Source of the DNA: Hexactinellida sp. DTS-2022 | Lineage: Eukaryota; Porifera; Hexactinellida | Assembly: GCA_028753945.1 (NCBI GenBank) | Contig: JAPNXP010000014.1 | Span: 4,402,001-4,466,000, forward strand | Length of the DNA stretch: 64,000 bases | Reading direction: 5' to 3' | Shown here: one piece after another, positions 2 through 58,323 of the stretch | Layout of the letters: the number at the start of each line of letters is the position of its first letter | Numbering within the stretch: the stretch's first letter is position 1 | The notes under the pieces: generated by a model | Seen by the model: only the letters and a program-made list of their open reading frames with translations | Told to the model about the DNA's origin: nothing | Databases searched by the model: none | Made by a program: the position numbers and the translations under genes

Positions 2-616
2 GGCACAGATCCGACGTTGATTAGCACATCTTCTGTTGAATTCGAAATCCCCAGTAAATATAGTTCTGTGCAGGACTGGGTTGAAGATATCACTAATACT
101 GAGGATCTTGTCAACAGAAGTGTCAATGATAACTTGGAACAATCGAGATGGACCATGAAGAAGAATTACGATGTCGGAAAATCCAATTCGGGGGTCGAAG
201 CCGGAGATTTCGTACTTGTAAGGGATGAGGTCAGGAGTGATTGCCTTGAACCCTTATACAAAGGCCCTTTCTGCGTCGTACAGAGGTCAGGTCCGAATGT
301 CAAGGTCAGGTTCGATAATGGGAAAGAGAAAGTTATACATCTCAATAGGTGCAAGCGATATTCACCTGCGTTTGCGCCTAAAAGCAATTCTACTAAGGGA
401 TTGAACACCCTGGATCTTGAAACCCAGAGTGAAGGGGACGAATACTTCTCAGAGGATGATACGAATAACGTAACTGCAGAAGTGCATACTGAGGGCACAA
501 CAGAAAGTGTGATGGAGCCCGCCATATTAGAAAGTGATATTAGAACCTCAGGCAGGATCAGGAGGATGCCACGATGGTTACAGGATGAACAATGGCCAGA
601 CGACTGGTCTCCCTAG
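2..616 (+). CDS. Ty3/Gypsy-type pol polyprotein, C-terminal end (partial)
   Basis: The frame is open from the left edge of the window, so the start lies outside; it ends at a TAG at 614-616. The segment around GDFVLVRDE, then LEPLYKGPFCVVQ, then VKVRFDNGKEKVIHLNRCKRY is the small beta-barrel-like C-terminal domain that closes integrase in Gypsy-type pol proteins, followed by an acidic tail ending in basic RTSGRIRRMPRWL and a tryptophan-rich end. The protein would insert element cDNA into the host genome. A purine tract and LTR follow directly. There are no internal stops in the visible 200 residues. The superfamily call is from motif recognition; the family is unknown. Confidence 0.8.
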   Translation, partial: GTDPTLISTSSVEFEIPSKYSSVQDWVEDITNTEDLVNRSVNDNLEQSRWTMKKNYDVGKSNSGVEAGDFVLVRDEVRSDCLEPLYKGPFCVVQRSGPNVKVRFDNGKEKVIHLNRCKRYSPAFAPKSNSTKGLNTLDLETQSEGDEYFSEDDTNNVTAEVHTEGTTESVMEPAILESDIRTSGRIRRMPRWLQDEQWPDDWSP

Positions 617-640
617 CGTTCCTTTGAGTTATTTTTTTTT

Positions 641-652
641 AGGGGGAGGTGA
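641..652 (+). other. Polypurine tract of the Gypsy-like element
   Basis: AGGGGGAGGTGA lies directly before the TG that opens the LTR at 653. This is where plus-strand DNA synthesis is primed in LTR retrotransposons. Confidence 0.75.
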
Positions 653-850
653 TGTTATAGATTAATATTAGTCCCTACTCACAGCCTCAAGTAGACCACA
701 CACATAGTAATAACCTAGATATCATATATATACTCATAGACTAATTAGGCGTAATTACACTGTATTTCACTTTGTGTAATTTCTTAGCAAATTGTAATAT
801 TAAAGTTATCTCTGTTTGATATTATCTCAGAACATCATTTAGTCCTAACA
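653..850 (+). repeat. 3' LTR of the Gypsy-like element
   Basis: A 198-bp AT-rich block starts with TGTTATAG and ends with CCTAACA, giving the TG...CA boundaries of an LTR. It follows a polypurine tract and the end of pol. The 5' LTR lies outside the window, so identity between LTRs and the target duplication (which would start GTTA at 851) cannot be checked. An AATATTAAAG stretch near 797 could serve polyadenylation. Confidence 0.75.
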
Positions 851-2221: not shown

Positions 2222-2324
2222 CTGGATTTAACCTCTGCATAATAATGGTTTAATGGTGAGAATAAGACCGCGAAGCGGTCTTATTCTCATCTTTAAACCA
2301 TTATTATGCAGAGATTAAATCCAG
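2222..2324. repeat. 103-bp near-perfect palindrome
   Basis: The arm CTGGATTTAACCTCTGCATA reads back as its complement at 2305-2324 with very few mismatches. The centre is GACCGCGAAGCGGTC, which contains the 7-mer GCGAAGC. It would fold into one long hairpin and may be a foldback MITE. No clear target duplication was seen. Confidence 0.85.
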
Positions 2325-3690: not shown

Positions 3691-3859
3691 CTACAGTACA
3701 CCCTCGCTAATCCGAACCTCGCTAATCCGAACCCTCGCTAGTCCGAACAGGAGAACCAAAACTATTTTTTGTATAAATTTGGGAAAAGATCTTAAATATA
3801 TTTGTATATTATAATGGAATTATAAAAAGGTAAGTCTCAGACAAGTATTTACGTACTAT

Positions 3860-4161
3860 TGTCATGTAGCGGCATAGTGAGATGCGCTACCATAAGATGA
3901 GTCACTCCCAGGAGGCCTAGGTGCTGCTAGAGTCCGCGAGGGACAGGAGCGAGAGCAGACCTAGAGTGTGCGCTGACGGAGCTGCTAGGCAGCGAGAGAG
4001 GTCAGGCACAACGGTCGCAGTGAGCGTACCGAGGGTAGAGGACTGGACCGTCCTCCTGATGAGGCCTGGAAGGCCGAAACACTTGAGTGGTGGCGACACC
4101 ACTTGGACCGCCCGCAGTCAAGAACTGTGGCAACTTGATGAGGTCCCATAGCTTCCTTACA
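3860..4161 (+). repeat. 5' LTR of the retrozyme
   Basis: TG...CA repeat of 302 bp. It matches the downstream LTR at 300 of 302 positions. A 76-codon frame inside it occurs in both LTRs but is judged fortuitous. Confidence 0.92.
4030..4085 (+). ncRNA. Type III hammerhead ribozyme, 5' LTR copy
   Basis: Stem III 5' strand CGAGGG (4030-4035) leads into the cleavage triplet GUA (4035-4037). Stem I is GAGGAC/GUCCUC (4038-4043 with 4050-4055) closed by a 6-nt loop. The core CUGAUGA (4056-4062) is followed by stem II GGCC/GGCC around UGGAA, then GAAA (4076-4079) and stem III 3' strand CACUUG. One stem III pair is a G-A mismatch at 4081, so this copy may cleave less well than the 3' copy. Confidence 0.9.
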
Positions 4162-4163
4162 TT

Positions 4164-4177
4164 TGGTGCATTGGCCG
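4164..4177 (+). other. Primer-binding site, tRNA-Gly
   Basis: TGGTGCATTGGCCG begins 2 nt after the 5' LTR. It is the exact 14-nt complement of the 3' end of tRNA-Gly(GCC) including CCA, as I recall that tRNA. The following bases continue to resemble the complement of its T-arm, with gaps. This places reverse-transcription priming where LTR elements have it. Confidence 0.85.
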
Positions 4178-4222
4178 CGAACGAGCCGGGGTGAGTCCCG
4201 CGAGATCGGGCGGAAGCTTTGT

Positions 4223-4234
4223 AGGGAAGAGTGA
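4223..4234 (+). other. Polypurine tract of the retrozyme
   Basis: AGGGAAGAGTGA lies directly before the 3' LTR. Its end GTGA|TGT resembles the PPT/LTR junction of the Gypsy-like element at 649-655. Confidence 0.8.
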
Positions 4235-4536
4235 TGTCATGTAGCGGCATAGTGAGATGCGCTACCATAAGATGAGTCACTCCCAGGAGGCCTAGGTGCT
4301 GCTAGAGTCCGCGAGGGACAGGAGCGAGAGCAGGCCTAGAGTGTGCGCTGACGGAGCTGCTAGGCAGCGAGAGAGGTCAGGCACAACGGTCGCAGTGAGC
4401 GTACCGAGGGTAGAGGACTGGACCGTCCTCCTGATGAGGCCTGGAAGGCCGAAACCCTTGAGTGGTGGCGACACCACTTGGACCGCCCGCAGTCAAGAAC
4501 TGTGGCAACTTGATGAGGTCCCATAGCTTCCTTACA
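4235..4536 (+). repeat. 3' LTR of the retrozyme
   Basis: 302-bp direct repeat of 3860-4161, followed by the CTAT target duplication. It contains the better-paired ribozyme copy. Confidence 0.92.
4405..4460 (+). ncRNA. Type III hammerhead ribozyme, 3' LTR copy
   Basis: Same fold as the 5' copy but stem III is fully paired: CGAGGG (4405-4410) with CCCUUG (4455-4460). GUA is at 4410-4412, CUGAUGA at 4431-4437, stem II GGCC/GGCC, and GAAA at 4451-4454. All invariant core bases are present. Confidence 0.93.
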
Positions 4537-4788
4537 CTATACTATATGTTTAGTTTGGATTATTAAAAAGCTTTCGACAAGTTAGGTTCGGATTATCGGG
4601 GTCTATTTTATAGAGACCTATAGAAAATGTATTACTTCACTAATCCGAACAGATTTTTTGAAACAGAATACCTCTGTTTGGATTAGCGAGGGTGTACTGT
4701 ATCGAACAATGACGAAATTTCTGGGCCCCCACAGATTGATTTCCTCGGGCCCCACAATTATAAATCCAGCCCTGTATACGATAAATAC

Positions 4789-56523: not shown

Positions 56524-58323
56524 ATGAGATACAAACATCCACGCATTCCACGTCCCTTCATACGTCTCCTGGTCCTGATTATAATTATATCTTGCTGTTT
56601 GTCGGTAGTAATTACATTTGGTCTTTTACTGAATACTGACGCGCGAAATTCGATAAATACCGCGATATACTACGTACAGAGACATTACAACGAGATACCC
56701 TTCCTGCACCCGCCTCCCTACATCCAAGGAGACGGAGGCGTAGTCCCTAAACAAGCTGGAAGGAGACTCAGACCGAATCAACTCAATTACAACTTCGATT
56801 TGAAGAAATATCAACCAAAGAATGAGGAGGAGAGGAAGTTGGAAGAAGAGGGTAAGAAGAAGAATGGTTTCAATGCCTTCCTGAGTGACGGAATCCCTTG
56901 GGACCGTCCTGTGCCCGAGTTGAGAGACCAGTCTTGTTTCTCCCAGGAATACGCCGACAACCTCCCCAACGCTTCTGTCATTATTATATTCCATAACGAA
57001 GTCCTGTCCGCCCTAATGCGCACGATAACCACCGTGCTGCTGCGCTCCCCGGCAGAGCTGCTGCACGAGATTGTACTGGTGGACGACTTCAGCGAGAGGG
57101 AGTACCTCAAGGAGAAACTGGAAGACTCGATTCGCCCCCTCTCCAAAGTGAAGCTAATTCGCCACAAGTCGCGACTCGGTTTGATTCGCGCCCGACTGAC
57201 AGGTGCCCGTGCCGCTACCGGCCAGGTTATAGTAATACTGGACTCTCACTGCGAGTGCTACGAGGGCTGGCTGGAGCCGCTGCTCGACCGCATACACACG
57301 GACCGCACCATTGCAGTGACGCCCGACATCACCACAATCGATTGGGAAACGATGGAACACACCTCCAGGCCCGGGCCCCTAACTAGCCGGGGGTCGATCG
57401 ACTGGTCATTCGCGTTCAAGTGGAAGAAGATACCTCCGTACGAGAACGAGCGGAGGAAGACAGATGGAGACCCGGTGAGATCGCCGACTATGGCTGGGGG
57501 CCTCTTCGGGATGGACAGAGAGTACTTCTTCGAGATAGGAGCGTATGATGAGGATATGATGATATGGGGAGCTGAGAATGTGGAGATTTCGTTCAGACTT
57601 TGGATGTGCGGTGGTTCCCTCGAAATAATCCCTTGTTCAAAAGTGGGACACATATTCAGGGGCGGCGGTAACACCATCTGGACGTTCCCAGAGGGGGCAG
57701 ACAAGACACTCACAAAGAATACCATGCGTCTGATAGAGGTCTGGGTGGACGAGGAGTACAAACATATTTACTACGACAAACGGCCCTGGGCAAAGGACAG
57801 AGACTATGGCGACATATCTTCCCGGCTTGAGTTGAAGAAGCGGTTAAACTGTAAACCTTTCCGATGGTACATGGAGAATATCGTGCCAGAGCTGACTCTC
57901 CCAGGCGATAACATGGTCGCAACTGGTCCCATTCGAAATCTGGGGACTGACCATTGTATTGATACGATGGGGCGGGGCGAGCACGGGGAGGTAGGAATGT
58001 ACCCCTGCATTGACCACTCATTGAATCAGGACATAGGCCTAACTGACATTCATGAGCTGCAATTCGACTCCGACTTCTGTCTGGACGTGTCTGACCATAA
58101 CCCGGGTGCAAAGGTCACGCTCTACAGCTGCCATGCCATGGGTGGAAACCAGAAATGGGACTTTAATTCTGTGTCGAAGCAGCTGAGACATTCCATTTCC
58201 GGGAACTGTCTGGAGTCTAAGGACAAGAACACGCTCGCCATGTATCCGTGTAACAGCACTCCCTCGCAGCAGTGGAGCTTCAGGGCCTATCACTCCCCTC
58301 AGGAGCGCAAGGCAATGCCTTAA
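56524..58323 (+). CDS. GALNT: Polypeptide N-acetylgalactosaminyltransferase
   Basis: A complete 599-residue type II Golgi enzyme in one exon. A hydrophobic anchor (residues about 13-36) follows a basic start. The GT27 catalytic domain shows IIIFHNE, EIVLVDDFSE, RLGLIRARLTGA, LDSHCEC (the metal-binding D-x-H), SPTMAGGLFGMDREYF and WGAENVEISFRLWMCGGSLE, then VGHIFR. The usual WGGEN is WGAEN here. A ricin-type lectin domain (about residues 470-590) has CIDTMGRGEHGEVGMYPC, FCLDV and QKWDF/QQWSF repeats. It transfers GalNAc from UDP-GalNAc to Ser/Thr, starting mucin-type O-glycans. The length is typical. The coding sequence is much richer in GC than its surroundings. The subfamily is not assigned. 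Confidence 0.95.
   Translation: MRYKHPRIPRPFIRLLVLIIIISCCLSVVITFGLLLNTDARNSINTAIYYVQRHYNEIPFLHPPPYIQGDGGVVPKQAGRRLRPNQLNYNFDLKKYQPKNEEERKLEEEGKKKNGFNAFLSDGIPWDRPVPELRDQSCFSQEYADNLPNASVIIIFHNEVLSALMRTITTVLLRSPAELLHEIVLVDDFSEREYLKEKLEDSIRPLSKVKLIRHKSRLGLIRARLTGARAATGQVIVILDSHCECYEGWLEPLLDRIHTDRTIAVTPDITTIDWETMEHTSRPGPLTSRGSIDWSFAFKWKKIPPYENERRKTDGDPVRSPTMAGGLFGMDREYFFEIGAYDEDMMIWGAENVEISFRLWMCGGSLEIIPCSKVGHIFRGGGNTIWTFPEGADKTLTKNTMRLIEVWVDEEYKHIYYDKRPWAKDRDYGDISSRLELKKRLNCKPFRWYMENIVPELTLPGDNMVATGPIRNLGTDHCIDTMGRGEHGEVGMYPCIDHSLNQDIGLTDIHELQFDSDFCLDVSDHNPGAKVTLYSCHAMGGNQKWDFNSVSKQLRHSISGNCLESKDKNTLAMYPCNSTPSQQWSFRAYHSPQERKAMP

Follow-up and report, generated by a model that had tools for sequence, protein, structure and literature searches.

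We have found that positions 3860-4536 of the window (the whole stretch of 64,000 nucleotides analysed here) are occupied by a 677-bp element in which two direct 302-bp LTRs, each with a type III hammerhead motif, surround a 73-bp interior. We consider it probable that this element and its relatives are non-autonomous LTR retrozymes of plant-like build in an animal, which is what the original prediction had proposed; the anatomy matches that of the plant elements and the host is an animal, a glass sponge as judged by one protein. Support for this reading comes from the anatomy itself, from 4-bp duplications, empty sites, a primer site that matches a host tRNA, compensatory changes in the ribozyme stems and the presence of other copies and families. 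The features of the element and its surroundings are as follows.

3694..4699, no strand: MITE-like repeat interrupted by the element; its inverted ends are about 25 bp long and TA flanks it left and right
3856..3859, no strand: target-site duplication CTAT, left (sequence; empty-site alignment)
3860..4161, plus strand: 5' LTR, 302 bp, TG...CA (LTR alignment)
4030..4085, plus strand: type III hammerhead in the 5' LTR, GUA site, predicted cut after 4037, G-A mismatch in stem III (RF00008)
4038..4412, plus strand: predicted freed RNA, 375 nt, 59% G+C, fold z -3.18 (two predicted cuts)
4162..4234, plus strand: interior, 73 bp (between the LTRs)
4164..4177, plus strand: putative primer binding site TGGTGCATTGGCCG, 14 nt complementary to the host tRNA-Gly(GCC) 3' end with CCA added
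4223..4234, plus strand: polypurine tract AGGGAAGAGTGA, with one T, abutting the 3' LTR (sequence)
4235..4536, plus strand: 3' LTR, 302 bp, 2 differences from the 5' LTR (LTR alignment)
4405..4460, plus strand: type III hammerhead in the 3' LTR, GUA site, predicted cut after 4412, stems paired (RF00008)
4537..4540, no strand: target-site duplication CTAT, right (sequence)

Both LTRs begin with TGTCATGTAG and end with CTTCCTTACA, and their two differences in 302 bp fall at LTR positions 100 and 222. The interior opens with TT, continues with TGGTGCATTGGCCG 2 nt past the 5' LTR and closes with AGGGAAGAGTGA, which touches the 3' LTR directly. The near-identical TG...CA repeats, the CTAT duplication, the polypurine tract and a 375-nt product delimited by the two cuts had all been anticipated, and each was recovered at the positions given above. 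The suggestion that the element is among the smallest conceivable fits its tiny interior but has to be tempered for the element as a whole, as PMC10886601 reports SMARTs with a total length of 292 bp. The predicted 375-nt unit is richer in G+C than the window (59% versus 37%) and folds better than all of 100 shuffles. A 99-aa open frame on the minus strand spans the interior; we do not regard it as a gene.

The window element is an insertion and more than a chance arrangement of repeats. When its two flanks, joined at a single CTAT, were used as a query, 58 matches were obtained (40 of 842 first-look candidates scored). Forty of these reached at least 251 bits; two of them are the halves from the window itself, which overlap by CTAT plus one adjoining base, and 38 cross the junction. 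A further 18 matches are short and lie at the ends. All 38 of the other scored MITE-like copies are therefore empty sites with no insert at this point, which speaks against an assembly duplication, a concern raised with the original prediction.

The covariance model bore out a hammerhead in each LTR. With RF00008 (type III) run in E-value mode on window positions 3700-4700, the 3' LTR motif scored 39.8 bits (E 6.3e-7) and the 5' LTR motif 35.0 bits (E 1.4e-5). Both are under the Rfam gathering score for this model (48.5) and, because neither hammerhead reaches it, a default gathering-score scan of the whole window came back empty. The 3' hammerhead takes the expected fold (65 nt, -27.5 kcal/mol, z -3.00, equalled by 2 of 200 shuffles), whereas the fold of the 5' hammerhead was not better than shuffles (z -0.82, 36 of 200 as good). 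LTR position 222 is responsible for the G-A mismatch in stem III of the 5' copy and, because of this mismatch, the earlier claim of a complete fold in each LTR is slightly overstated; it stands for the 3' copy. Helix I of the window hammerhead is a plant-like 6 bp with a 6-nt loop.

Hammerheads of this kind are numerous in the genome. A search for the strict core CTGATGAG-N6..24-CGAAAC gave 375 occurrences (188 on one strand, 187 on the other) and none of the reversed pattern. The genome search with RF00008, in which 68 of 12319 first-look candidates were scored, put 64 of these 68 above the gathering score, the best at 64.3 bits; across 14 control genomes the model found matches in 2, none of them above the gathering score. 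For the analysis of stems, 9 of 79 motifs were dropped for lack of a single UH at the two stem-I lengths allowed, and 44 distinct cores were kept; in a separate parsing of 79 motifs, 12 gave no three-stem structure. In the 44 cores, 625 of 660 stem cells are paired. Pairing was observed in 44/44 cores at stem II position 1 (shuffle mean 22.2, maximum 32), 44/44 at stem I position 5 (mean 33.2, maximum 38), 42/44 at stem III position 3 (mean 22.7, maximum 32) and 40/44 at stem III position 4 (mean 30.5, maximum 36), and pairing at stem III position 5 was not beyond shuffles (22/44, mean 20.0); the cores are related sequences, so the shuffles are only a guide. Several stem columns are nearly invariant and thus uninformative on covariation, but some of the variable ones change in step, that is, they show compensatory changes. 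Cleavage sites in the 44 cores are GUC (24) or GUA (20), and that the cleavage position is never G follows by construction from a parsing in which only non-G was allowed.

Within family A, the family of the window element, the ribozyme was not better conserved than the remainder of the LTR (0.866 versus 0.867-0.942 in 13 aligned LTRs, an alignment without copies that are truncated or rearranged, among them L015, L018-L021 and L023), and two copies, L017 and L022, have lost parts of it. Given that there is no excess conservation within the family, the case for ribozyme function rests on its persistence between families. Two simple patterns for RNA polymerase III A/B boxes gave no match in the LTRs of families A, B and C, and viral contigs held no exact match to the family-A ribozyme plus following sequence.

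The primer site proposed originally, a 14-nt tRNA-Gly complement 2 nt past the 5' LTR, matches a host gene. A tRNA-Gly(GCC) gene lies at locus L068 (1452-1522), and its 3' end plus CCA yields the predicted primer site TGGTGCATTGGCCGGGAATCG, whose first 14 nt are matched in the window and 18 nt of which are matched both in L010 and in L067, the latter a member of another LTR family. L009, a family-A copy, has one mismatch within the site. Exact TGGTGCATTGGCC sites number 13 in the genome (reversed control 0) and, where the surroundings were examined (6 of the 13), all six follow the end of a family-A- or C-type LTR. The CTGATGAG core of the ribozyme is present at five of these six sites and the whole three-stem ribozyme at four: the window (with its mismatch), L010, L070 and the plus strand of L071. 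At the L067 site the LTR is shortened, with the core kept and the cleavage side absent, and at the site on the minus strand of L071 there is only the 3' part of the ribozyme.

A genome search for further copies with different 4-bp duplications, one of the checks proposed at the outset, did find them. With the element as query and 40 of 73 candidates scored, at least 44 matching stretches (the window's own included) were obtained on 16 of 18 contigs, which removes the objection that the element has no other copies. As at least 13 of the copies are one old solo LTR carried by a larger repeat, the 44 stretches are not 44 independent insertions. The larger repeat is about 4.7 kb long (L029 1-4769 and copies L026, L030-L039, L043 and L044), and it has spread this hammerhead-bearing solo LTR, with its ACAG duplication, to many contigs. 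We had considered the numerous 78%-identical matches as a second family of free copies and rejected this, as they are mostly this one ACAG solo LTR. Solo LTRs with duplications of their own were found at L011 (AAAG), L012 (CTTC), L013 (GATT), L014 (ATAA), L016 (CTAG) and L022 (ACAG); the flanks of L017 match at 3 of 4 bases and L015 is truncated. The family-A interior was found in three places only, the window, L009 and L010 (3 of 3 candidates scored), and LTR stretches thus outnumber interiors. The flanks of L009 match at 3 of 4 bases (CTTA/CTTC); L009, a full element, and L012, a solo LTR, have common flanks and look like one duplicated locus that is full in one copy and solo in the other.

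In a wider survey of duplications using loose LTR ends (TGT[CGA][AG] ... ACA), at least one matching duplication was found for 31 of 77 hammerheads, 13 of which represent the single ACAG event and are not counted as independent. Of 677 end pairs, at least 35 had a matching duplication (no more than two matches were counted for any one hammerhead), versus 82 of 10832 shifted controls.

Three LTR families were distinguished, with LTRs of 302 bp (A), 325 bp (B) and about 238 bp (C). The family B LTR (L063 1324-1648) has at least 50 matching stretches (40 of 394 candidates scored) and the family C LTR (L070, TGTAGTA...TACTACA) at least 41 (40 of 262 candidates scored); for both, the best matches at other genomic sites share 97-99% identity with the query copy. 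At E <=0.01 the three families match one another solely at the ribozyme (33, 34 and 56 nt). Family C has the tRNA-Gly site immediately after the LTR (L067, L070, L071), so this site is common to A and C, and no primer site was recognised in family B. The family-B insertion L063 has an interior of about 160 bp and contains two 367-bp repeats that are 99.7% alike. At L063 1649-1690 the family-B interior begins with a hairpin, TAATAACT...AGTTATTA, followed by TGTTATG, the end of an inverted LTR; self-priming by such a hairpin is possible.

Three of the insertions are inverted arrangements of LTRs in which the 5' ends of LTRs face outward on both sides, and in each case a single 4-bp duplication encloses the entire structure.

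L062, 1446-1939: palindromic insertion, 494 bp, duplication CGTA
L010, 1989-2718: palindromic insertion, 730 bp, duplication CAGG
L063, 1324-3507: palindromic insertion with five LTRs, duplication CTAT

In L010 the inverted LTR retains the first 5-6 nt of the interior, including the TGG of the primer site. A partial look for the multi-unit arrays that would hint at rolling-circle copying returned L063, whose five LTRs are in mixed orientation. We infer that the palindromes arose by strand switching or snap-back during reverse transcription; assembly error may also be their source.

Seven open frames in the window carry recognisable domains (transporters, ALG14, TMEM175, OATP, galactosyltransferase, a GALNT-like enzyme and cullin/ANAPC2). 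The best named relative of the GALNT-like frame (56524-58323) is from Oopsacas minuta, a hexactinellid (82%). Two entries without a name reach 82 and 92%, and further named organisms are at about 50% or less (best 120 of 2084 matches). By this one protein, the host is a glass sponge. Closer to the element, window positions 2-850 are the tail of another LTR element, with an open frame at 2-616, a polypurine tract at 641-652 and an LTR at 653-850. An integrase match lies shortly outside the window on its left, and we take C6:4394714-4395409, which is split by about 500 bp, as the putative 5' LTR of this neighbour. We infer that it is Gypsy-like; the sole Pfam match near it is to the MLV integrase C-terminal domain (E 0.0046, below Pfam's cut-off). 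At window positions 2236-2324 there is a near-perfect inverted repeat around accgcgaagcggt.

The neighbour was considered as a helper and set aside, as there is no tRNA-Gly site in the roughly 70 bases examined after its putative 5' LTR (L069). Plant LTR retrozymes have end boxes in common with Ty3/Gypsy elements; in this one neighbouring element compared, the polypurine box resembles that of the retrozyme-like element and the primer site does not; the LTR at 653-850 has no hammerhead. Integrases of the LTR-element type are common in the genome (at least 150 matches; 150 of 885 candidates scored). When these 150 were set against the 13 tRNA-Gly sites, no site had an integrase within 10 kb downstream on the same strand, and only the window's site had any within 50 kb, this being the neighbouring element, 4.8 kb away and upstream. 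An autonomous helper with a tRNA-Gly site was thus not found among these 13 sites and 150 scored integrases.

The published record, as far as the portions available to us go, divides retrozymes into LTR elements from plants with type III hammerheads and non-LTR elements from animals with type I hammerheads (PMC7229834, PMC7761336, PMC7936874, PMC11722881), and the statement in the original prediction that animal retrozymes lack LTRs agrees with three of these sources (PMC7229834, PMC7761336, PMC11722881). Among the published open-licence papers listed, titles and the opening lines of abstracts gave no report of an LTR retrozyme in an animal; type III elements in insects are alluded to as work in preparation (PMC7761336). 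The closest likeness is to the plant LTR retrozymes of Cervera et al. 2016 (PMC4918200). According to the parts of that paper available to us, these have (i) LTRs of about 300-350 bp, each of which holds a type III hammerhead; (ii) 4-bp duplications, a primer site, a polypurine tract and a non-coding interior; (iii) G+C above 55%, a value also given in PMC7229834, and many solo LTRs and (iv) sequence likeness mainly in the ribozyme and the end boxes, as in the sponge. The sponge element differs in its animal host, in a tRNA-Gly primer site where the plant elements have tRNA-Met, in an interior of 73 bp as against about 300-700 bp and in a predicted RNA unit of 375 nt as against 600-800 nt; palindromic insertions, present in the sponge, are not mentioned in the same parts of PMC4918200.

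Other known systems share fewer of these traits, again as their available descriptions present them. Metazoan non-LTR retrozymes (Cervera and de la Pena 2020, PMC7229834) are also non-autonomous animal elements with a unit, in their case 170-400 nt, between two hammerheads, but their hammerheads are of type I and lie in tandem repeats that lack an LTR, a primer site and a polypurine tract, their G+C is low and their duplications are longer; the sponge element has neither the type I hammerhead nor the LTR-free tandem repeats that define that class. Penelope-like elements and Terminons (PMC7761336) are animal retroelements with hammerheads in terminal repeats, yet these hammerheads are minimal type I, the repeats are pseudo-LTRs and the enzymes are different. 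Type III hammerheads in animals are known from HDV-like circular RNAs of toad and termite and from dipteran genomes (PMC7936874), but are of another shape, with an atypical long helix I instead of the plant-like 6 bp in the sponge. TRIMs and SMARTs, including Helenus and Ajax (PMC10886601), are likewise under 1000 bp, with a primer site, a polypurine tract and no protein; animal Helenus makes 4-bp duplications, and the TRIMs and SMARTs of that paper have a small-RNA motif within the LTR. Unlike the sponge LTRs, those of the Helenus/Ajax type contain tRNA-like or 5S-like sequence and no ribozyme.

A circle-template model has been put forward for LTR retrozymes (PMC4918200, in the parts available), and by analogy with plants the sponge elements might be copied as follows. 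An LTR promoter would give rise to an RNA that cuts itself in both LTRs, and the freed 375-nt unit would be closed into a circle by a host ligase. tRNA-Gly would then prime reverse transcription of the circle by a helper enzyme (Ty3/Gypsy-like), varying rounds on the circle would produce solo-LTR, one-unit or multi-unit cDNAs and the helper's integrase would insert these with 4-bp duplications. Since cuts in both LTRs remove terminal redundancy, the template is likely to be circular and to comprise one LTR and the interior. The G+C content, the fold of the 375-nt unit and the excess of LTRs over interiors are consistent with this model but do not amount to proof; solo LTRs also arise by LTR recombination, and L009 and L012 look like a duplicated locus that is full in the one and solo in the other.

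Several observations count against the retrozyme reading, namely the mismatched 5' hammerhead, the lack of excess ribozyme conservation within family A and the losses in L017 and L022, and also the failure to find a helper with a tRNA-Gly site among the 13 sites and 150 integrases compared, the mere three family-A interiors, the primer-site mismatch in L009 and the lack of a recognised site in family B. We consider it unlikely that the element is an ordinary TRIM whose hammerhead is a passenger or serves only to trim the RNA, and which is copied by standard linear reverse transcription, with strand transfer through the R region and without any RNA circle. The sponge element does have the features of a TRIM (less than 1000 bp, LTRs, primer site, polypurine tract, no protein), the ribozyme shows no excess conservation within family A and the common flanks of L009 and L012 are explained by a duplicated locus plus LTR recombination. 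However, LTR families that are significantly alike nowhere else keep the ribozyme, with compensatory changes, and a double cut would abolish the terminal redundancy needed for linear strand transfer, an argument made in the available part of PMC4918200. More improbable still, in our estimation, is the scenario in which the LTRs derive from an autonomous hammerhead LTR retrotransposon and the short elements are its internal deletions. The abundance of LTR-element-type integrases and the resemblance of the neighbour's polypurine box would suit such a parent, but the whole interiors are short (73 bp in the window, about 160 bp in L063), the neighbour's LTR lacks a hammerhead and the bases examined after its putative 5' LTR lack a tRNA-Gly site, and 0 of the 13 tRNA-Gly sites have a same-strand integrase within 10 kb downstream (150 of 885 candidates scored).

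Compatible with the reading of these elements as LTR retrozymes, and possible though we are inclined to doubt it, is that they are fossils only, a decayed family that is no longer transcribed or mobile. This would fit the few interiors relative to the many LTR stretches, the broken ribozymes of L017 and L022 and the mismatch in the window's 5' LTR; set against it are the mere 2 differences in 302 sites between the window LTRs, the 99.7% likeness of the 367-bp repeats in L063 and the 97-99% identity of the best family B and C matches to the query copy. To contamination or an assembly artefact we give almost no credence: no supporting point was found, and matches on 16 of 18 contigs, the amplification of one insertion inside a host repeat, the empty sites and the match of the primer site to a host tRNA all argue otherwise.

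For the biology of the group, we would put at roughly even chances the broader proposition that glass sponges are home to a large and varied clan of LTR retrozymes with recent activity that copy via small RNA circles primed by tRNA-Gly, with the palindromes representing strand-switched cDNAs of such circles. If so, the strand-switched route to palindromes would be one that is not mentioned for plant retrozymes in the portions of PMC4918200 available to us, and LTR retrozymes of type III would either go back to an old design of eukaryotes or have come about by convergence of, or transfer between, plants and animals. Hundreds of type III cores in one animal genome, many of them within LTRs, break the split between plant LTR elements with type III and animal non-LTR elements with type I hammerheads that runs through the 2016-2024 literature, as far as the available parts of that literature show. 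The finding is relevant to the question of an ancient, transferred or convergent origin of LTR retrozymes and to the source of viroid-like circles with hammerheads. It also provides a small system in an animal, its units being near 375 nt, for testing circular RNAs as templates of reverse transcription.
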